Of a stretch of 31,700 bases of DNA, positions 4,863 through 20,906 are shown piece by piece. Below the pieces are notes generated by a model that was given only the letters and a program-made list of their open reading frames with translations, was not told where the DNA came from and did no database searches. Source of the DNA: Fusobacterium sp. (GTDB lineage: Bacteria > Fusobacteriota > Fusobacteriia > Fusobacteriales > Fusobacteriaceae); NCBI GenBank assembly GCA_018457305.1, contig JAGYHM010000002.1, forward strand, positions 1 to 31,700. Direction: 5' to 3'. The position numbers and the translations under genes were made by a program. Within the stretch, counting starts at the first letter, position 1. Each line of letters starts with the position of its first letter.

Positions 4863-4888
4863 AAGCTCCTCCTTATTTTTTATAAAAA

Positions 4889-4908
4889 CAAGGGAGCGTC
4901 CTCCCTTG
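4889..4908 (-). terminator. Palindromic repeat (AREHAPLS family) acting as terminator
   Basis: CAAGGGAG-CGTC-CTCCCTTG forms an 8-base stem with a 4-base loop. On the minus strand it is followed by TTTTTAT, so it looks like an intrinsic terminator between the coiled-coil gene and the amidase gene. The sequence is nearly the same as two palindromes inside mutL (16711-16730 and 16963-16982). Confidence 0.75.
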
Positions 4909-4926
4909 CTGGATAATTTTATTATC

Positions 4927-5217
4927 TTAGTTTTCTATATAATATTTTATAGCTTCAAGTTCAACCTTTTTGAAAGCAATATTTTTAAGAGCATTTTCTC
5001 CCTTTTTAATTTGCTTTTCTATTTTTTCAATCCAAGCATCATAGCTTTCATAAACTCCATTTGCAAGCTCAACTTGATTTTCTTTTTGGCCTTGCACCTG
5101 TCTTAATGCTGCCTTGTCATTTTCTATCTCTTGAGCAACAAAGATTTCTCTTGCTATAGCCTTCTCCAATTTTTCTGAATAAGTTTTCATAATAAGTTTT
5201 TTTTCATTTTTTTCCAT
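4927..5217 (-). CDS. Small coiled-coil protein of unknown function
   Basis: 96 residues, rich in Glu, Lys, Ala and Gln, with no signal peptide or membrane segment. Long helices with heptad-like spacing are likely across residues 10-50 (EKLEKAIAREIFVAQEIEND) and 60-95 (IEKIEKQIKKGENALKNIAF). A strong AGGAGG site supports the start. It lies 64 bases upstream of the amidase on the same strand, with a terminator-like palindrome between. Small coiled-coil proteins are common next to phage lysis genes, but I do not recognise a family and assign no function. Confidence 0.7.
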   Translation of the reverse strand: MEKNEKKLIMKTYSEKLEKAIAREIFVAQEIENDKAALRQVQGQKENQVELANGVYESYDAWIEKIEKQIKKGENALKNIAFKKVELEAIKYYIEN

Positions 5218-5803: not shown

Positions 5804-5833
5804 AAACAATGCTTACTCTTAAATTATAAATAA

Positions 5834-5900
5834 AGGGCGACCGCGGAGCTAAAGCTCCTGCCGCCCTCTCTAGGTGGGGGCTGTCGCCCCCAAAACCCCT
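5834..5900 (+). repeat. R1 GC-rich structured repeat, copy a
   Basis: Starts AGGGCGACCGCGGAGC, has a nested stem (GGGCG/CGCCC outside, GGAGC/GCTCC inside), then a second hairpin ending GCCCCC and the tail AAAACCCC. It begins 30 bases after the cadC stop. Related copies are at 6461, 8501, 11660 and 20699. Together with R2 and R3 copies it fills the gene-free stretch 5804-6239. Confidence 0.8.
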
Positions 5901-5920
5901 AAAAATTATTTTTATTTTTA

Positions 5921-5975
5921 GTGCGAGGCGACGGCACGCCGTCGCAAACCAGCGAGCAGCGAAGCGGGCGAGCCA
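5921..5975 (+). repeat. R2 GC-rich structured repeat, copy a
   Basis: Contains the hairpin GCGACGGCACGCCGTCGC followed by a GCGAGCAGCGAAGCGGGCGAG stretch and ends GAGCCAAAA. Related copies are at 6561, 11207 and 20848. It follows R1 copy a, suggesting R1-R2 is one composite unit. Confidence 0.75.
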
Positions 5976-6019
5976 AAAGTCAGATTATAATTTCCTTAGG
6001 TATAAATAAACTAATTATT

Positions 6020-6196
6020 TAAGAGCCTTTAAAATTTCTCAGTAAAAATTTGTAATGAGTTTTAGAGAAAGCTTGTGTGTCTGAGCGTAGTGAGTTTGCA
6101 AGTTTATCTTAACGAATTAGAATTTTTACGGTTAAAGAAATTTTGGGCTCGTAAGGGCTTTTTGTTTACTTTTTTGCCCGTAAAAAAGTAAAATAT
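6020..6196 (+). repeat. R3 177-bp repeat, copy a
   Basis: Matches 8641-8817 over 177 bases without gaps and with about eight substitutions by eye, seven of them transitions. It carries a CTTGT...GCAAG stem and ends in the hairpin TTTACTTTTTT-GCCCGT-AAAAAAGTAAA. It has no convincing ORF. The two copies bracket the HMA and ATPase genes as direct repeats. Confidence 0.9.
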
Positions 6197-6239
6197 AAAT
6201 TTTAAATGAAATTAAAAAAACTATAACGGAGGTAATAAA

Positions 6240-6458
6240 ATGAAAAAAATGTTTAAACTAGAAGGATTAGATTGTGCAAATTGTGCAGCAAAAATTGAGA
6301 AAAGAGTTTCAAAATTAGAGGGTATTAAATCTGTATCTGTAAATTTTATGACAACAAAAATGACTTTAGATATTGAGGGAGATGTTGAAAAAATTTTAAC
6401 AGAGGCTAAAGCTATTGTAAAAGATGTTGAGCCTGATGTAAATATTGTAAAAGCATAA
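6240..6458 (+). CDS. Stand-alone heavy-metal-associated (HMA) domain protein
   Basis: 72 residues making one ferredoxin-like HMA domain. The metal site is GLDCANCA (Cys13-x-x-Cys16), a context typical of the N-terminal domain of Cd/Zn/Pb ATPases (CadA/ZntA) rather than the GMxCxxC of copper chaperones. The fold continues through KIEKRVSKLEGIKSVSVNFMTTKMTL. It has a good site (CGGAGG, 7 bases before ATG). The P-type ATPase that follows has no HMA domain of its own, so this protein probably supplies it in trans, either as a metal chaperone or as a detached regulatory domain. No operator like that of cadC is visible directly upstream, so expression may depend on read-through from cadC. Confidence 0.88.
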   Translation: MKKMFKLEGLDCANCAAKIEKRVSKLEGIKSVSVNFMTTKMTLDIEGDVEKILTEAKAIVKDVEPDVNIVKA

Positions 6459-6460
6459 TA

Positions 6461-6596
6461 AGGGGCGACTGCGGAGATAAATCTCCTGCCGCCCTCTCTC
6501 GTGGGGGGCTCCGCCCCCAAACCCCCATTGGGGTGTCGGGGTCGAAGCCCCGACTAGAAAGGCGAGCAGAACTTTTAGTTCGTGGTGAGCCAAAAA
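6461..6596 (+). repeat. R1-R2 composite repeat, copy b
   Basis: R1 part from 6461 (GGGGCGACTGCGGAG, GGAGATAAATCTCC stem, CCCCCAAACCCCC tail), then a GGGGT...ACCCC type hairpin, then a shortened R2 part (GGCGAGCAGAACTTTTAG to GAGCCAAAA). It begins only two bases after the HMA stop codon and separates that gene from the ATPase. Confidence 0.78.
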
Positions 6597-8492: not shown

Positions 8493-8499
8493 AAAAATT

Positions 8500-8574
8500 T
8501 GGGCGACTGCGGAGATAAATCTCCTGTCGCCCTTTCTTGTGGGGGCTTCGCCCCCAAAACCCCTAAATAAAAAA
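8500..8574 (+). repeat. R1 GC-rich structured repeat, copy c
   Basis: Nearly the same as copy b: GGGCGACTGCGGAG, GGAGATAAATCTCC stem, then GGGGGCTTCGCCCCC and AAAACCCC. It starts eight bases after the ATPase stop codon. With the hairpin at 8581 and R3 copy b it fills the gene-free stretch 8493-8816. Confidence 0.8.
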
Positions 8575-8580
8575 TAATTA

Positions 8581-8627
8581 TCTTAGAGCCTTTAATCAGG
8601 TTCTACTCTGATAAAAACGCTCTAAGA
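8581..8627. repeat. Nested inverted repeat (possible structured RNA)
   Basis: TCTTAGAGC (8581-8589) pairs with GCTCTAAGA (8619-8627), and ATCAG pairs with CTGAT inside. It lies between R1 copy c and R3 copy b; no T-run follows. Confidence 0.55.
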
Positions 8628-8640
8628 AAAACAAGTTCTC

Positions 8641-8817
8641 TAAGAGCCTTTAAAATTTCTCAGTAAAAACTTGTAATGAGTTTTAGAAAAAGCTTGCGTG
8701 TTTGAGCGTAGCGAGTTTGCAAGTTTTTCTTAACGAATTAGAGTTTTTACGGTTAAAGAAATTTTGGGCTCGTAAAGGCTTTTTGTTTACTTTTTTGCCC
8801 GTAAAAAAGTAAAATAT
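8641..8817 (+). repeat. R3 177-bp repeat, copy b
   Basis: Second copy of 6020-6196. Here the stem near 8695-8725 reads CTTGC...GCAAG (CTTGT in copy a, a G-U pair), so pairing is kept despite the change. Its terminal AT-rich hairpin touches the stop codon of the convergent glutaredoxin-like gene and may serve as its terminator. Confidence 0.9.
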
Positions 8818-9065
8818 TAAATCTCAAAAACATCATCCCCAATAATAAGTTTATTATCTTCTGTAAGTATTGTTGGAATACCTATATACCCCTCTTTTCT
8901 GACTTCTTCAAATTCTTTTTTGTTATCTCTTAAAGCTAAAAATTCTTTTAAATTTGTAACATTAGCTGTTATATCTATAAATTCATATCTATAAGAAATC
9001 CCATCTAAATATTCAAAGGCTTCCACACAATCTTCACATATTCTACTACCATAAAATTTATTCAT
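8817..9065 (-). CDS. Glutaredoxin-like protein with CEDC motif
   Basis: 82 residues with a thioredoxin fold. The redox motif is Cys10-Glu-Asp-Cys13 near the start (YGSRICEDCVEAFEYL), and the cis-proline region is GYIGIPTILTEDNKLIIGDD, ending in the family's G-D-D pattern. It probably reduces disulfides or mixed thiols in the cytoplasm; the acidic active site (CEDC instead of CPYC) is unusual, so the partner is unclear. The GGGAGG site fits the ATG at 9065. It converges on the metal cluster, with R3 copy b at its 3' end, and diverges from the GNAT gene. Grouping with metal stress is only suggestive. Confidence 0.8.
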   Translation of the reverse strand: MNKFYGSRICEDCVEAFEYLDGISYRYEFIDITANVTNLKEFLALRDNKKEFEEVRKEGYIGIPTILTEDNKLIIGDDVFEI

Positions 9066-9484: not shown

Positions 9485-10393
9485 TTGGATTTAAAAAAAG
9501 CAAATAAATATATAAAAGATTTTGAAAAAACTTTAAAAAAACCTGTATTAGATTTTGATAAATCTGAATTTTATGTAGGTGTAGATTTAGGAACTGCCAA
9601 CATAGTAATTACAATACTTGACAAAAATGGTAAGCCTGTGGCCGGAGCAACGAGAAGGTCAAGAGTTGTTAGAGATGGTATCGTTGTTGATTTTGTTGGA
9701 GCAATAAATATTGTTAAAGAATTAAAAAGAGGACTTGAAGAAAAATTAGGAATAGAAATAAATAAAGGTTACACTGCTATTCCCCCTGGTGTAGAAAAGG
9801 GAAGTGTCAAAGCTATTGTAAATGTAGTTGAGAGTGCAGGTATAGATGTTTTAGAAGTTGTTGATGAACCGACTGCTGCTTCTTATGTTCTTGGAATTGA
9901 AAATGGAGCTGTTGTTGATGTTGGTGGTGGAACAACTGGAATAAGTATTCTAAAAAATGGAGAAGTTATTTTTGTTGCAGATGAGCCAACTGGTGGAACT
10001 CATATGACTTTGGTTATTGCTGGAAGTATGGGGATTGATTTTGAAAAAGCAGAAGATCTTAAATTGAATCGTAAAAAAGAAGATGAGGTTTTTGTAAAGA
10101 TTGCTCCCGTTTTAGAAAAAATGGCTTCAATAACAAAAAGATTTATTGATGGAAAAGATGTAAAAGATATTTATTTAGTTGGTGGAGCTTGTACTTTTAA
10201 AGAATCTGAAAATGTATTTAAAAAAGTTTTAGAAATAGATTCAGTTTATAAACCATATATGCCAGTTTATATTACACCAATTGGTATTGCTCTAACTGGT
10301 TTAAAAAATAAAATCAAAAGTGAAGAAAAAACTAAAGAGAAAAAAACTAAAAAAATAACTAAGAAAAGAGTGAAAAAAGAAGATAAAAAATAA
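9485..10393 (+). CDS. eutJ: EutJ-like actin-fold ATPase with Lys-rich tail
   Basis: 302 residues, matching EutJ of ethanolamine-utilisation operons almost end to end. Phosphate 1 motif: FYVGVDLGTANIVITILD (~residue 28); then VVRDGIVVDFVGA, IPPGVEKGS, VDEPTAASYVLGI, the second phosphate loop VVDVGGGTTGISI, and the adenosine motif VGGACTFKES. The fold is that of actin/Hsp70 ATPases; EutJ is thought to act as a chaperone for eut enzymes or shell, but its task is unproven. The start is TTG at 9485 with GAGGTG 7 bases before; an ATG at 9480 is out of frame. Oddities: no other eut gene is within the window, and the C-terminus has about 30 extra residues dominated by lysine (KTKEKKTKKITKKRVKKED). 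Confidence 0.9.
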   Translation: MDLKKANKYIKDFEKTLKKPVLDFDKSEFYVGVDLGTANIVITILDKNGKPVAGATRRSRVVRDGIVVDFVGAINIVKELKRGLEEKLGIEINKGYTAIPPGVEKGSVKAIVNVVESAGIDVLEVVDEPTAASYVLGIENGAVVDVGGGTTGISILKNGEVIFVADEPTGGTHMTLVIAGSMGIDFEKAEDLKLNRKKEDEVFVKIAPVLEKMASITKRFIDGKDVKDIYLVGGACTFKESENVFKKVLEIDSVYKPYMPVYITPIGIALTGLKNKIKSEEKTKEKKTKKITKKRVKKEDKK

Positions 10394-10400
10394 TTTTTTG

Positions 10401-10430
10401 AGAGGCTGTTACAAATTTGTAACAGCCTCT
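10401..10430. terminator. Bidirectional intrinsic terminator between eutJ and lrgB
   Basis: A perfect 30-base palindrome (AGAGGCTGTTACAAA and its complement). It is followed by TTTATTTT on the plus strand and CAAAAAATTATTTTTT on the minus strand, so it can end both convergent genes. Confidence 0.9.
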
Positions 10431-10435
10431 TTATT

Positions 10436-11128
10436 TTAAATTAAAAATTTTAAAATTGGTGCCCAAATAAGAGTTAAAATTCCTGCTATAACTATTGAGA
10501 GAGCAGACATTGAGCCTTCAATTTCTCCCATTTCTATCGCCTTTGATGTCCCAACAGCATGACTTGCAACCCCTATTCCTATTCCCTTTGCAACAGAATG
10601 TTTTATTCCAAAAATTTTACAAATAAAAGGGGCAGAAACATTCCCCGTAATTCCAGTTATTATTATACTTAAAACTGTTAGGGCAGGTATACCACCTATC
10701 ATAGAACTAACTTCTATTCCTATCGGTGTTGTAATTGATTTTGGCATAAAAGATAAAAGTAATTTTTCATCTATATCTAAAATTTTTCCCAAAACTATAA
10801 CCGATATGATTGCAGAAAAAGAGCCAACAGTTGCTCCTACCATAACAGGAATAAAATGCTTTTTAAATAAATCCCACTGTTTATATAATGGCAAAGCTAA
10901 AGCAACAGTTGCAGGTGCTAGAAAAAATAAAATTATATTTCCACCTTGAAAATAACTTTCAGTTGAAATATTAAAAAATTTCAAAATAGAAATTACTATT
11001 ACTATTGCTATTAAAAGTGGATTACACAGTGGGGTATTTGATTTTTTAAATAAAAATTTTCCTATTTCAAAAGCCACATAAGAAATTATAAGTCCAAAAA
11101 ATGGATTATTCACAATTAAATCTTTCAT
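10436..11128 (-). CDS. lrgB: LrgB/CidB-family membrane protein
   Basis: 230 residues, highly hydrophobic, with about six to seven membrane segments. The family signature is clear: FFLAPATVALALPLYKQWD, LSFMPKSITTPIGIEVSSMIGG, then GIGIGVASHAVGTSKAIEMGE. LrgB works with LrgA (118-residue gene at 11277-11633); in other bacteria the pair influences murein hydrolase activity, lysis and pyruvate or short-acid transport. In most genomes lrgA and lrgB abut; here a 148-base gap containing an R2 repeat separates them on the same strand. The ATG at 11128 has only a weak GAGAGG-like site. The gene stops against the shared terminator at 10401-10430. Confidence 0.93.
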   Translation of the reverse strand: MKDLIVNNPFFGLIISYVAFEIGKFLFKKSNTPLCNPLLIAIVIVISILKFFNISTESYFQGGNIILFFLAPATVALALPLYKQWDLFKKHFIPVMVGATVGSFSAIISVIVLGKILDIDEKLLLSFMPKSITTPIGIEVSSMIGGIPALTVLSIIITGITGNVSAPFICKIFGIKHSVAKGIGIGVASHAVGTSKAIEMGEIEGSMSALSIVIAGILTLIWAPILKFLI

Positions 11129-11206
11129 TTATTTTATTCCTCTCTTTTTTATTTTTTATTCTAATTTATTTTAGATTTACCTCAACGAAATAAATTTCTT
11201 TAAAGT

Positions 11207-11271
11207 GTGAGTGCGACGCCACCGCGTCGCCAGCCAATAGGCGAGCAGGACTTTTAGTCCGTGGCGAGCCC
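11207..11271 (+). repeat. R2 GC-rich structured repeat, copy c (between lrgA and lrgB)
   Basis: GCGACGCCACCGCGTCGC-type hairpin followed by GGCGAGCAGGACTTTTAGTCC and a GGCGAGCC end, close to copy b at 6561. No R1 part accompanies it. It lies in plus orientation, opposite to lrgA and lrgB. Confidence 0.75.
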
Positions 11272-11276
11272 ATAAA

Positions 11277-11659: not shown

Positions 11660-11731
11660 GTGGGGAAACTGCGTTCACTCTGTTCACTGTTTCCCCTCTC
11701 TGCGAGGCTTGGGGCTTCGCCCCAAACCCCA
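11660..11731 (+). repeat. R1 GC-rich structured repeat, copy d
   Basis: Belongs to a subgroup with the copy at 20699: both have GCGTTC-C-CTC-GTTCACTG-like stems and share CCCCTCTCTGCGAGGCTTGG. It ends GGGGCTTCGCCCC-AAACCCC. It lies between lysS and lrgA. Confidence 0.75.
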
Positions 11732-11763
11732 GTCAAATTATGATTATTGATTATTAAAACAAA

Positions 11764-16041: not shown

Positions 16042-17997
16042 TTACTTTCTTTTAAAAAGTTTTTCTAAATCTGTCTGACTTAATTTAACTATAATTGGTC
16101 TGCCATGTGGGCAAGTATATTTTCCAACTTCGTGAAGTTTTGCCACCATAGAATACATCTCTTCCATAGTTAATTTATGATTTGCTTTTATTGCTCCCTT
16201 ACACGACATTGAAACCAAAATATTTTCTCTTATGTCTGTATCTTTATTTTTTAAAATATTATCAATAATTTCTCTTATTATACTTTCATTACTTGCTCTT
16301 AAATTCATCACTGGTGTGCTTCTAAGTAAAATTTCATTTTTATCAAAATCATCTATTTCATAAGCAAAATCTGAAAAAATTTCTAAATTATCTAAAACTA
16401 ACTGCTTCTCCAAAGGATTTAGTTCCATTCTTATTGGCACAAGCAAATTTTGTTTAGACATTGCCTTTGTACTGTACTCTTGTTTTAATTTTTCATATAA
16501 AATTCTTTCGTGTATTATATGTTGGTCATAAATTTCAAAGATTCCGTTTCTTTCAACCAAAATAAAAGTGTCAAAAATCTGTCCAATTACTTTAAAATTT
16601 ATATTTTTTAAATTCTCAAAAGATTCAAAAATTTTATTTCTTTTTGTATCTTCTTCTTCAAAAATATATTTTTTTTCTTCTATTTTTTCTTGTGCTCCAG
16701 CATTTGATGACAAGGGAGCATGCTCTCTTGCTGAATTTTCTCTAATCTCAAAAGAATTTCTAAATTCAGAGAAATTATTATTAGAATTTTCTTCTATTTT
16801 TTTTTCTAATTTATTTTCAAAAAAATTATCTACTATCGGCATTGAATATTCTTCTCTGTTTATTGCAGATAACTGTGATAAATTTTCAATTTTCTTATTT
16901 TCTTCCTGTAAATCTTTTTTAAAATTGTTTATATCTAAAAAATTATTAGAATTCATTTTTGACAAGGGAGCATGCTCCCTTGCTAAGTCTTCATCTTCGT
17001 TATTTAAATTTTTATCTAAACTAGCCGAACAAAATTCCTCATCATCTGCAAATACATTATCAATTTCTCCCTTAACCAAATTATAAATATCTCGTTGATT
17101 ATCAAATTTTACTATTTTTTTAGAAGGATGTACATTGACATCTATTCTTTCTGGATCAATATCTATAAAAATTAAAGCAGATGGATATTTTCCCTTCATA
17201 AGTTTTGTATGATAGGCATCAATCACTGCCGTTTCTATAATTTTTGATTTTACTGGTCTATTGTTTACAAAAACATAAATAGACTCTTTATTAGATTTGA
17301 ATAAATTTGCATTTCCTAAATAACCCAAAGAAAATTTTTCAGAATTTTTCAAATAATTTTTTCCAAAAATTTCTAGAATTGTATTTTCCATTCCATTTCC
17401 ACTTGTTGTTATACTTTCTTTACCATCAATAAACAATAAAAATTTAACATGTGGATTTGTTAGTGCTTCCCTAATTATTACATCTTTTATATTTAAGTAT
17501 TCTGTTGTATCTTTTCTCAAAAATTTTTTTCTTGCAGGTGTGTTATAAAATAAATCTTTTATTTCTATATAAGTTCCCACATTTTTTTGAACATCTTTTA
17601 AATTTGTAATTTTTCCACCAAGAATGTTTATCTGAGTTCCACTTTCCATTTCAGCAGTTCGTGAACACATAATCATTTTAGAAACTGAAGCTATTGAAGA
17701 TAGAGCTTCTCCTCTAAAACCATAAGTTCTTATTTTAAATAAATCTTCTTTTGTAGAAATTTTACTTGTGGCATGTCTTTCAACACAAAGTAATAAATCT
17801 TCTCTTGACATTCCCTGTCCATCATCACTTATACTTACATTCAAGCCACCATTTTTAATTTCTAATTTAATGCTTTTACTTCCAGCATCTAATGAATTTT
17901 CTATCAGTTCCTTAATCATACTGGTTGGATTTTCTACTACTTCTCCTGCTGCTATTGCATTAGATACACTTTCATCTAAAATTTTAATTCGTCCCAT
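16042..17997 (-). CDS. mutL: DNA mismatch repair protein MutL (endonuclease type) with two palindrome insertions
   Basis: 651 residues. N-terminal GHKL ATPase: Glu30 and Asn34 in IKELIENSLDAGS, DDGQGM (58-63) and GFRGEAL (93-99); the transducer domain follows (VNVHPSKKIVKFD). The C-terminal domain carries nuclease metal sites: DQHIIHERILYE at 491-502, fitting DQHA(x)2E(x)4E with Ile for Ala; SCKGAIKAN (Cys599); and CPHGRP (629-634). This MutL is therefore expected to nick DNA itself, as in species without MutH. The linker (~320-450) is low-complexity and contains the octapeptide AREHAPLS twice, at 339-346 and 423-430, each encoded by a 20-bp palindrome. GGAGG precedes the ATG. It is divergent from recJ and first in the run to rlmH. 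Confidence 0.97.
   Translation of the reverse strand: MGRIKILDESVSNAIAAGEVVENPTSMIKELIENSLDAGSKSIKLEIKNGGLNVSISDDGQGMSREDLLLCVERHATSKISTKEDLFKIRTYGFRGEALSSIASVSKMIMCSRTAEMESGTQINILGGKITNLKDVQKNVGTYIEIKDLFYNTPARKKFLRKDTTEYLNIKDVIIREALTNPHVKFLLFIDGKESITTSGNGMENTILEIFGKNYLKNSEKFSLGYLGNANLFKSNKESIYVFVNNRPVKSKIIETAVIDAYHTKLMKGKYPSALIFIDIDPERIDVNVHPSKKIVKFDNQRDIYNLVKGEIDNVFADDEEFCSASLDKNLNNEDEDLAREHAPLSKMNSNNFLDINNFKKDLQEENKKIENLSQLSAINREEYSMPIVDNFFENKLEKKIEENSNNNFSEFRNSFEIRENSAREHAPLSSNAGAQEKIEEKKYIFEEEDTKRNKIFESFENLKNINFKVIGQIFDTFILVERNGIFEIYDQHIIHERILYEKLKQEYSTKAMSKQNLLVPIRMELNPLEKQLVLDNLEIFSDFAYEIDDFDKNEILLRSTPVMNLRASNESIIREIIDNILKNKDTDIRENILVSMSCKGAIKANHKLTMEEMYSMVAKLHEVGKYTCPHGRPIIVKLSQTDLEKLFKRK
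16711..16730. repeat. In-gene palindrome, mutL copy 2 (residues 423-430)
   Basis: CAAGGGAGCATGCTCTCTTG, a 20-base palindrome with one mismatch. In the mutL frame the element with flanks encodes AREHAPLS. It shares about 24 bases with the copy at 16963 although the surrounding linker differs. Confidence 0.9.
16963..16982. repeat. In-gene palindrome, mutL copy 1 (residues 339-346)
   Basis: CAAGGGAGCATGCTCCCTTG, a perfect 20-base palindrome, GC-rich within an AT-rich linker. It encodes AREHAPLS in the same reading frame as the other mutL copy. An intergenic relative at 4889-4908 acts as a terminator. Confidence 0.92.
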
Positions 17998-18163: not shown

Positions 18164-20695
18164 ATGAAAAAAACAAATTGGATTTTAGAAAAACAAAAAG
18201 AAAATTTATATTCAAAAAAGAAGATTAAATTTGATGAAATTATAGAGAATATTTTAGAAAATAGAAATCTAACAACAGATTCAGAATTTACTTTCAACCC
18301 CTTTGATTTAAAAGATATTGATGTCGCAGTTGAAAGAATTTTTAAAGCAATAGAAAACAATGAAAAAATTTATATTTATGGCGACTATGATGTGGATGGA
18401 ATAACTTCCGTTTCACTTTTGTATTTAGCATTTTCAGAAATTGGAGCAAATGTTGATTATTATATTCCACTTAGAGATGAGGGCTACGGTTTAAATAAGG
18501 ATGCAATTTTATTTTTAAAAGAAAATTCTGCTGATTTAGTTATAAGTGTTGACTGTGGAATAAATTCTGTTTCGGAAATTGATTATGCAAATTCACTAGA
18601 TTTAGATTTTATAATCACTGATCATCACGAAATAACTGGAGATATTCCAAAAGCACTAGCAATTATAAATCCAAAAAGGGAAGAAAATATTTATGAGTTT
18701 AAATATCTTGCAGGAGTCGGAACTGCATTTATGTTAGCCTATGCTTTATTTTCAAAAAAAGATAAGATAAAAGATTTGAATAAATTTTTAGATATTGTTG
18801 CAATAGGAACGGTTGCAGATATTGTTCCTCTGGTTGATGATAACAGAAAATTTGTACAAAAAGGCTTGAGTGAATTAAATAAAACTAAGTGGATGGGAAT
18901 TAAGCAATTACTTAGAAAAATTTTTCCAGACGATTACGAAGATAGGAGATATACTTCTTATGATATAGGTTATGTAATTGCTCCAATTTTTAATGCAGCA
19001 GGAAGATTGGAAGATGCAAAAGGAGCAGTAAAATTATTTTTAGAAGAAGATCCTTTTAAAAGTTTAGCCATCATAGAAGAACTTTTAAAAAATAATTTTG
19101 ATAGAAAAGAATTACAAAAAAAGATTTATGAAGCCTCTGTTCGTGAAACTGAAAGTAAAAAATTATACGAGAAAAATTTAATTTTAGTTGCAAGTAATAA
19201 ATTTCATCATGGAGTTATAGGAATAGTTGCATCAAAAATTTTAGATAGATATTACAAACCAACTATCATTATGGAAATCAAAGAAAAAGAAAATATTGCT
19301 ACTGCTTCTTGTAGAAGCGTTGAGGGTTTAAATATTGTTGAATGTTTAAACTCTGTTTCTGATATTTTATTAAAATATGGAGGACATTCGGGAGCAGCAG
19401 GTTTTACAATTGTAATTGATAAGATAGACGAATTTTACGAAAGAGTTGATAAGTACATAGAAGAAAATTTTTCAAAAGATATTTTCAAAAAAAATATAAA
19501 AATTACAGAAATTTTAGAGCCTTATAAAATAAATTATGATTTTTTGAAAAAAATGGAAATTTTAGAACCTTTTGGATCAAAAAATCATTCTCCAATTTTT
19601 GCATTTAAAAATTGTACTTACTCTAATTTAAGATTTACTAGAAATTCTACGGAGCATATAATTTTTGATGTAATCAAAGACGGTTATTATTTTAAAAATT
19701 GTATTTTCTTTAATGGTGGAGATTATTATGATATTATTGCTAATTCAAAAAATATTGACATTGCCTTTAAGTTAAAATTAGAAACTTTTATGGACAGATA
19801 TATGTGTAAAATTCAATTAGAAGATGTAAAAAATTCAAATGAAAATTTAGAATTTACAAAAAGTTTTGAAAAAAACGGAAAAGATATTTTATTTCCACTA
19901 GAAACAGTTGCCTACACTAGAAGAAGTGATATTGAAAATCCACTTTCACTGAAATTTAATGATTACGATGTAGAACTTATTAAAGATAGGACTATTGTTT
20001 CAAAACTTGATTCAAATTTATCTCACTTACTTAGATTACTTCAAAAGAATTTTTCTTATAAATTTTCTGTGAGCTTAGAAAAAAAATATGTGAAAAAAGA
20101 AAATGTGAATTTATTTTTGAAAATTGATATTGATAATGAATTTGAGTCTTATGCCTTGAAAGATAATCAACTTTTCAACGATATAAAAAAATATTTGGTT
20201 GGAGATTTTTCTTATAATTCTATTCAGAAAAAAGTTTTGGCTTCTATTTTTAAGAATAAAAATAAAACTTTACTTATTAGCAAAAATAAAAATAGAGGAA
20301 TTTCTACAATTATAGATACAATTAAACTTTTCTATGAGTCAAAAAAATTAAAAGTTTCTTACAATAATTTTGAAGAAAAAGCAGATTTTTATATTTTTGA
20401 AAATTATAAATTTGAAGATTTAGAAAGCTTTGAAAAAAATTTAGAAAATTTAAAAAGTTCTAATATTTTAGTAATTTCTAACGAAGAAATTTCTTTAAAT
20501 AATTTTTCAAAAATTGAAGATGACTTAACTATTCCTAAAAATATTAAATTTATAGAAAATAATTTTGTATTTGATAAAATTCCAGAAAATTTTTATCACG
20601 ATTATTTAAGTGATAAAGATAAATTAAAAATTTTAGAAAAATTAAAAAATAAGGAAGAAATTATTTCTACGAAAGATATTTTAATTAATTTATAA
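18164..20695 (+). CDS. recJ: Single-stranded-DNA exonuclease RecJ with long C-terminal extension
   Basis: About 843 residues, starting at the ATG at 18164 (GAGGA 5 bases upstream); an in-frame ATG at 18152 has no such site. DHH phosphoesterase motifs: GDYDVDG (Asp74, Asp76), SVDCG, TDHHE (153-156) and GTVADIVPL; the DHHA1 motif is GGHSGAAGF (from 406). It degrades single-stranded DNA 5' to 3' in recombination and mismatch repair, which suits its position divergent from mutL. After an OB-like part (to ~560) the protein has about 280 more residues. There QKKVLASIFKNKNKTLLISK followed by NKNRGISTII resembles a helicase nucleotide loop whose GKT has decayed, as in the C-terminal domain of many Firmicute RecJ proteins. 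Confidence 0.96.
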   Translation: MKKTNWILEKQKENLYSKKKIKFDEIIENILENRNLTTDSEFTFNPFDLKDIDVAVERIFKAIENNEKIYIYGDYDVDGITSVSLLYLAFSEIGANVDYYIPLRDEGYGLNKDAILFLKENSADLVISVDCGINSVSEIDYANSLDLDFIITDHHEITGDIPKALAIINPKREENIYEFKYLAGVGTAFMLAYALFSKKDKIKDLNKFLDIVAIGTVADIVPLVDDNRKFVQKGLSELNKTKWMGIKQLLRKIFPDDYEDRRYTSYDIGYVIAPIFNAAGRLEDAKGAVKLFLEEDPFKSLAIIEELLKNNFDRKELQKKIYEASVRETESKKLYEKNLILVASNKFHHGVIGIVASKILDRYYKPTIIMEIKEKENIATASCRSVEGLNIVECLNSVSDILLKYGGHSGAAGFTIVIDKIDEFYERVDKYIEENFSKDIFKKNIKITEILEPYKINYDFLKKMEILEPFGSKNHSPIFAFKNCTYSNLRFTRNSTEHIIFDVIKDGYYFKNCIFFNGGDYYDIIANSKNIDIAFKLKLETFMDRYMCKIQLEDVKNSNENLEFTKSFEKNGKDILFPLETVAYTRRSDIENPLSLKFNDYDVELIKDRTIVSKLDSNLSHLLRLLQKNFSYKFSVSLEKKYVKKENVNLFLKIDIDNEFESYALKDNQLFNDIKKYLVGDFSYNSIQKKVLASIFKNKNKTLLISKNKNRGISTIIDTIKLFYESKKLKVSYNNFEEKADFYIFENYKFEDLESFEKNLENLKSSNILVISNEEISLNNFSKIEDDLTIPKNIKFIENNFVFDKIPENFYHDYLSDKDKLKILEKLKNKEEIISTKDILINL

Positions 20696-20698
20696 AAA

Positions 20699-20756
20699 AG
20701 GGAGACCGCGTTCGCTCCGCTCACTGTCTCCCCTCTCTGCGAGGCTTGGGCAAGCC
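20699..20756 (+). repeat. R1 GC-rich structured repeat, copy e
   Basis: GGGAGACCGCGTTCGCTCC...GTCTCCC stem, then CTCTCTGCGAGGCTTGGG; same subgroup as 11660-11731. It begins three bases after the recJ stop and may end recJ transcription. Confidence 0.75.
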
Positions 20757-20847
20757 CTCTTAGAAATTCTTGCAAACTTGTTTGCTTAGAAGTTCTTAGA
20801 TGCTTAGCCGTAGGTGGTAGAGTACAAACCCCTCAAAATTATTTTTA

Positions 20848-20906
20848 GGTGTAAGGCGACGGCATTCCGTCGCAACCAGCGAGCAGCAAAGCGGGCGAGC
20901 CAAAAA
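20848..20906 (+). repeat. R2 GC-rich structured repeat, copy d
   Basis: GCGACGGCATTCCGTCGC hairpin, then ACCAGCGAGCAGCAAAGCGG and GAGCCAAAAAA; closest to copy a at 5921. About 90 bases containing a TAGAAATTC/TAGAAGTTC-like imperfect repeat separate it from the R1 copy. Confidence 0.75.

Follow-up and report, generated by a model that had tools for sequence, protein, structure and literature searches.

A 31.7-kb stretch of DNA from one Fusobacterium sp. (contig JAGYHM010000002.1, positions 1 to 31,700; hereafter the window) holds three copies of the 20-letter palindrome CAAGGGAGCATGCTCCCTTG, two of which lie inside the mismatch-repair gene mutL and encode the octapeptide AREHAPLS. We consider the palindrome to be most likely a mobile repeat of about 24 nt that resembles repetitive extragenic palindromic (REP) sequences and belongs to a group of REP-associated tyrosine transposases (RAYT; Y1 transposases of the HUH class). 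Everything reported for the window concerns this single contig, which has a G+C content of 26.9%.

A scan of the window yielded an exact copy at 16963-16982 (copy 1), one with a single mismatch at 16711-16730 (copy 2), and one with two mismatches at 4889-4908 (copy 3). The chance expectation, estimated from 100 dinucleotide-preserving shuffles of the window, was 0. The initial annotation had given the same positions, with the same mismatches for copies 1 and 2, and had described the element as GC-rich, which it is: 12 of the 20 letters, counted by eye, are G or C. On the plus strand, each copy is preceded by A and directly followed by CT; the minus-strand flanks are TTAG, TCAG, and CCAG, in which only the final YAG resembles GYAG. 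The arms CAAGGGAG-N4-CTCCCTTG were present exactly twice in the window (4889 and 16963), plus once with one mismatch (16711), compared to none of 98 Fusobacteriota genomes when any 4-nt loop was allowed. On these counts, the three copies are very probably related to one another; the hairpin at 4889 is unlikely to be a terminator of separate origin, and independently arisen terminators explain the counts poorly.

Within mutL, the octapeptides are read on the minus strand from GCAAGGGAGCATGCTCCCTTGTCA and occupy residues 339-346 (16960-16983) and 423-430 (16708-16731), in the same phase and the same orientation, one close to each end of MutL's variable interdomain linker. Their presence in this linker agrees with the initial annotation. 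Its further statement that the element is always in this frame holds for both copies, but a single gene supplies them both, and no phase of the palindrome contains a stop codon (QGSMLP, KGACSL, and REHAPL). The octapeptide is written in codons that are poor for this genome, namely AGG (8.0% of Arg), CCC (3.9% of Pro), GAG (12.4% of Glu), and TTG (12.6% of Leu), as calculated from 8,932 codons in 26 hand-picked open reading frames (ORFs) of the window, and this usage points to an origin at the DNA level.

We compared the window's MutL with its relatives, using the best 120 of 7,995 proteins above threshold, the window's own included. Among these matches, the two nearest relatives were 81% and 79% identical to it, followed by Fusobacterium hwasookii, Fusobacterium nucleatum, and their kin at 69-70%. 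AREHAPLS was detected in none of the other 119 proteins, and the two closest (P0002 and P0003) lack it at both sites, which is the opposite of what the initial annotation had named as the sign of an ancestral protein motif. Taken at the sequence level, these observations point to a DNA element rather than a protein motif as the source of the mutL octapeptides. The exact ends of the insertions cannot be read from the alignment because the length of the linker varies so much. An AlphaFold model of MutL based on 11 sequences was too poor for use (mean predicted local distance difference test score, pLDDT, 36.6); the octapeptide blocks scored 24-26, as did parts of the ATPase domain.

Could AREHAPLS nevertheless be a peptide-level feature, either a motif with a function in MutL or a fragment derived from a leuD-like gene, whose active-site motif is SSREHAP? 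A genome search with up to three mismatches, as recommended in the initial annotation, matched five of 61 Fusobacteriaceae genomes: three inside a gene encoding SSREHAP (G003, G049, and G056), one in a terminator-like setting (G016), and one, G055, with a palindrome set of its own. In the first three, the gene encodes GCGSSREHAP(L/W), in one case continuing as SREHAPLS, and is presumably LeuD. We regard the peptide-level explanation as highly improbable, given the absence of the motif from the other 119 MutL proteins among the matches listed, the poor codons that preserve the palindrome, the existence of an intergenic copy, and the occurrence of the palindrome's two remaining phases in RAYT proteins (see below). 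An origin from LeuD was rejected, and the three matches were taken as a coincidence of codons, AGG GAG CAT GCT CCC T being palindromic in itself.

The two mutL copies have 25 nt in common with one difference (a synonymous Arg codon, AGG/AGA), including TCA after the palindrome, and they are 88% alike over 33 nt, with no longer match reported (repeat D11). The shared 25 nt would suit an account in which mutL acquired or gave rise to one copy and then duplicated it locally, with the likeness to REPs and to the 4889 terminator reflecting convergence on stable hairpins. In line with such convergence, CAAGGGAGC-type hairpins were found in six IMG/VR contigs of unrelated look; viral matches to loosened patterns were likewise hairpins in contigs that look unrelated. 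We find this account unlikely, since the likeness between the copies stops at 33 nt, none of 98 Fusobacteriota genomes has arms identical to those at 4889, and RAYT proteins contain exact phases of the palindrome. The shared TCA may itself belong to the element because many members of the dispersed family described below (23 of 69 sampled copies) also have TG before ACAAGG, which counts against duplication. On the favored reading, copy 2 would have been inserted independently of copy 1.

The spacing of the two copies is exactly 252 nt, or 84 codons. As direct or inverted repeats, they might serve as a recombination switch that deletes 84 linker codons in frame or inverts the segment, turning mutL on and off and thereby varying mutability; read in the mutL frame, the other strand of the segment has five stops, beginning at the fifth codon. 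Switching of mutL by tandem repeats has been described in Salmonella (excerpts of PMC2955026), by a mechanism different from the window palindrome. The two closest MutL proteins among the matches listed, however, have neither copy. Repeats of 20-24 bp are also short for homologous recombination, and we hold a switch to be very improbable.

Copy 3, the only one of the three that is extragenic, lies between two minus-strand ORFs, with the palindrome 18 nt beyond the stop of ORF 4927-5217 (-). On the minus strand its hairpin is followed by TTTTTAT, and in its stem, its position after a gene, and its T-run it has the layout of an intrinsic terminator. It was not among the calls of a consensus terminator scan of the window. 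The predicted RNA hairpins have energies of -16.0 kcal/mol for copy 3 (z -3.8), -14.4 kcal/mol for copy 1 (z -2.9), and -7.5 kcal/mol for copy 2, where a stem pair is lost (z -0.3). The good fold of copy 1 and the position of both mutL copies near the linker ends might suggest that they are selected as pausing, attenuating, or termination structures of the mutL mRNA. Unlike intrinsic terminators, however, both lie inside the gene and have no T-run or U-tract beside them; copy 2 folds poorly; and a CAAGGG...CCCTTG hairpin was found in none of 30 other Fusobacteriaceae mutL genes. One of these 30, the mutL gene of G034 (L091), does carry a different perfect 20-bp palindrome in its linker, ATTTCGAGAGCTCTCGAAAT, which is in frame at codon 384 and encodes ISRALEI. 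Overall, we see very little chance that selected hairpins explain the two copies. The mutL gene of F. gastrosuis (G002:C1:191873-193830, L086) is apparently interrupted: the match ends at a TAA, a separate match covers the final 51 residues, and a second analysis likewise encountered stops in this gene.

The dispersed family was defined by way of G055, which has 19 places within two mismatches of a loosened pattern. In ten G055 copies, each read in its better-fitting orientation, A precedes the palindrome in all ten and C follows it in eight. The features common to the window and G055 palindromes were combined into the tagged pattern ACAAGGGNNCNNGNNCCCTTGC, which with at most one mismatch was detected in 15 of 98 Fusobacteriota genomes (hereafter palindrome-bearing), compared to 0 of 98 for the reversed control. 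Matches numbered 57 in G075, 46 in G081, and 29 in G069, some of them counted on both strands. The palindrome-bearing genomes other than G055 are outside the 61 Fusobacteriaceae genomes.

The genomic context of the family was sampled in 60 stretches around listed matches from five palindrome-bearing genomes, with simple picking of ORFs of at least 80 aa. Of 69 sampled copies, 62 were outside ORFs, six inside, and one at an edge; the extragenic copies were located between ORFs of the same direction (47), convergent ORFs (11), or divergent ORFs (four). A T-run stood beside the hairpin, on either side, in two of 62 exact copies in these stretches. From their shared design, the palindromes of the window, of G055, and of the type seen in G069 would form one family by descent. 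In L169-L228, one type of longer repeat has the outer ends CGATAAC / GTTATCG and resembles a miniature inverted-repeat transposable element (MITE), and one copy in L173 seems to join the left flank of one type to the right flank of another.

A link to a transposase is indicated in G069, where a gene has been invaded by a Y1 transposase, now broken, that has palindromes of the window's design within it and beside it. At this locus (L189, 931-4689), the insertion, with the rearranged, broken Y1 transposase and three palindromes, interrupts an Eco57I/MmeI-like restriction-modification gene (Pfam assignments). All three palindromes are in open frames and read ARGQDPLS, ARGLDPLS, and TRGQDPLS, that is (A/T)RG(Q/L)DPLS, in the phase corresponding to AREHAPLS. 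A piece of the C-terminal half of the transposase comes first, with the first palindrome in the linker of that half, where the RAYT-like protein P0187 has QGVMTPCS. The second palindrome is just before the start of the HUH half; a stop comes next, and the third palindrome stands directly before the methylase motif GFDVVVGNPPY, the Pfam match starting about 28 residues earlier. Six stretches around further Y1 fragments had no pattern palindrome within one mismatch. In G055, a Y1/RAYT-like gene (L137, 1420-2252; gene at 1483-1941) lies between two copies of a different palindrome, CGCAGGTCATCGACCTGCG, and this locus resembles a further REPtron of another type.

Five relatives of the G069 Y1 piece were identified, one of which (P0121) is named 'REP element-mobilizing transposase RayT' by its source. 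A profile of the five was searched, and the best 120 of 288 proteins were kept, both searches together giving 122 RAYT-like proteins (P0121-P0242). Among six RAYT queries, P0217 was the best match to the G069 piece (50.5% over 93 aa, E 4e-25). Of the 122 RAYT-like proteins, 59 had a peptide encodable by CAAGGG-N8-CCCTTG in some phase, versus one of the 120 MutL proteins among the matches listed, and shuffled controls gave a mean of 0.3 and a maximum of 3 (200 shuffles). The 68 peptide matches were distributed before the HUH motif (18), between HUH and LWxQK (five), and after LWxQK (42), with three unclear. The exact phases of the window palindrome were recovered as well: QGSMLPC in P0217, and both KGACSL and REHAPL in P0224. 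Moreover, P0224 has TREHAPLL and the plus strand of the window across copy 1 translates as LTREHAPLL, so the flanking A and CT agree too. The DNA behind these peptides is thus probably the window palindrome.

Some of the 122 proteins are from Patescibacteria, Smithellaceae, and KSB1, and in the set KGLQPLV and EQGxxxPCS occur in frame near either terminus as well as in central positions; palindrome-type peptides number two in P0198 and four in P0224. A tblastn search with P0217 gave no match in plasmids or phages, and two scans of viral contigs confirmed no relative.

Several observations weigh against assigning the palindrome to this transposase group. The pattern palindrome, with up to two mismatches, was found at none of 29 other Y1_Tnp loci, 26 of which are in palindrome-bearing genomes (one of the 29, L250, has a longer CAAGGGG...CCCCTTG inverted repeat); copies in and around a Y1 gene, a layout that recalls the palindrome-bordered transposase gene of REPtrons, were seen at the broken gene of G069 and at none of these loci. 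No Y1 match was obtained in three of the 15 palindrome-bearing genomes, and no RAYT was found in the window. The six RAYT-like proteins that were scored (P0121, P0122, P0187, P0198, P0217, and P0224), together with the G069 fragment, reached 31.9-55.2 bits with NCBIfam NF047646 (REP_Tyr_transpos), below its curated cut-off of 80 bits. The RAYT-like comparison was made at the peptide level, with the palindrome DNA of those genes deduced from the peptides, and the commonest peptide, KGLQPLV after LWxQK (28 of the 68 matches), does not count as independent evidence because it may be inherited.

On the DNA side, the fit of the window to ACAAGGGNNCNNGNNCCCTTGC is built in because the pattern was made from window and G055 features; that of the genomes beyond these is not by construction. 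The middle letters differ, being GTC..GAC in other Fusobacteriota versus AGC..GCT in the window, and many copies in other Fusobacteriota are centred in longer repeats with several unrelated flanks. Unlike described REPs, the window palindrome has no unpaired GTAG (or degenerate form) and no CGTC tag; its flanking letters are A at one end and C at the other. The exact 20-mer was found in no IMG/VR contig. A Burkholderia plasmid matched all 20 letters with an E value of 0.7, and matches to a Vibrio phage were weak (E 10); Rfam had no match in the window at gathering thresholds.

In spite of these points, we favor a REP-like mobile repeat. Its unit would have the design A-CAAGGG-AG-C-AT-G-CT-CCCTTG-CT, of about 24 nt. 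As single-stranded DNA, the palindrome would form a hairpin, with 8 bp in the stem and 4 nt in the loop, which a RAYT-type transposase could recognize, cut, and join elsewhere. Such an enzyme in the window's species may have acted in trans and placed copies in single-stranded DNA by transposition. Most copies would survive between genes, where the hairpin may be tolerated or serve as a terminator, as at 4889. The inserts in mutL would survive since the linker tolerates eight extra residues; we suggest that the two copies were kept because they lie in a variable linker, are stop-free in any phase, and with 24 nt (eight codons) keep the frame.

Compared to known systems, the palindrome is most readily placed beside REP/RAYT (TnpAREP, REPtrons). 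It is a short, near-perfect, dispersed hairpin palindrome within the 20-50 nt of REPs, is mostly extragenic in relatives, and in one relative is located in and around a Y1/HUH transposase. As to copy number, the 31.7 kb of the window contain three, and relatives of the design have up to 57 matches per genome, some of them counted on both strands. In excerpts of PMC8266576, RAYT/TnpAREP are described as HUH enzymes, the Escherichia coli enzyme acts in vitro on REPs in single-stranded form, cleaving at a CT next to them, and short perfect palindromes are reported for another group; excerpts of PMC6006769 report a survey of Y1 transposases with Fusobacteriales among its groups.

The initial annotation had instead chosen Rickettsia palindromic elements (RPE) as the precedent. 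They too are palindromes inserted in frame in genes and tolerated by the protein (PMC10969869 and PMC2229807, both in excerpts), but they measure 105-150 bp, as opposed to a window unit of about 24 nt, or eight residues, with similarity between the mutL copies ending at 33 nt, and REP/RAYT is the better precedent. Its core idea of a repeat spreading both between genes and into genes in frame gained support from the other MutL proteins, the window arms, the 15 palindrome-bearing genomes, and the RAYT phases, with the qualification that most of the relatives' sampled copies (62 of 69) are intergenic. Repair genes as targets, which the initial annotation had held to add interest, have precedents: Di Nocera et al. 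(2013; excerpts of PMC3733652) described intragenic GTAG/CGTC REPs, many of them located in genes for replication and repair (among others uvrA, uvrB, recB, and DNA polymerase I) and in some genes twice; the terms 'mutL' and 'Fusobacter' are absent from its main text. The CGTC-type REPs treated in those excerpts (including Rickettsia RPE-4 and RPE-6) resemble the window palindrome in their 8-9 bp stem, 4-5 nt loop, and intragenic copies. They differ in having the CGTC tag and a CCA tail, and they are said there to be without a transposase, whereas an associated transposase is indicated for the window type. Our literature search found no description of REPs in Fusobacteriota, nor any occurrence of four palindromes and NKGLQPLV as literal strings. 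The kind of element is known; for the untagged A...C form, the phylum, the transposase group with in-frame peptides, and the mutL pair, no description was found in the literature searched.

Table 1. Coordinates of mutL, its linker, and the tagged palindrome copies in the window
Feature	Position	Strand	Remarks
mutL, 651 aa	16042..17997	-	ATPase domain and MutL C-terminal dimerisation domain
Variable interdomain linker of MutL, about residues 323-442	16672..17031	-	From an alignment of 11 MutL proteins; contains both octapeptides
Copy 1, tagged palindrome A-CAAGGGAGCATGCTCCCTTG-C	16962..16983	+	Exact palindrome; 0 mismatches to the family pattern, a fit that is built into the pattern
Copy 2, tagged palindrome	16710..16731	+	One arm mismatch; AREHAPLS, MutL residues 423-430
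Copy 3, intergenic	4888..4909	+	Two mismatches, both in the loop; 8-nt arms intact

The window contains further G+C-rich intergenic repeat families (D1, D2, D5, and D7) at 5829-6206, 6457-6572, 8495-8827, 11201-11272, 11684-11737, 20695-20906, and 1412-1656. Parts of the 5829-6206 repeat had matches in 13 of 61 Fusobacteriaceae genomes, the best in F. gastrosuis (G002, 75% identity). The repeat pair at 1412-1656 is followed by a Phd/YefM antitoxin and YoeB-like toxin pair (1718-2247, Pfam). A perfect 15-bp inverted repeat at 10401-10430, between the convergent ORFs 9485-10393 and 10436-11128, has the appearance of an ordinary bidirectional terminator.

A broader possibility, which we offer tentatively and with more doubt than confidence, is that a large untagged REP/RAYT lineage extends across several phyla, and that its stop-free 24-nt palindrome enters coding sequence in frame, repeatedly invades the linker of its own transposase, has decorated MutL twice, and acts as a general generator of short in-frame linker peptides. 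The RAYT proteins with palindrome peptides in all three phases provide a natural experiment on a transposase tolerating its own element. For Fusobacteriota, the proposed assignment provides a testable pair of a short palindrome class and a transposase group, and in the window's species it would mean that such a palindrome can enter the coding sequence of a mismatch-repair gene as frame-preserving octapeptides.

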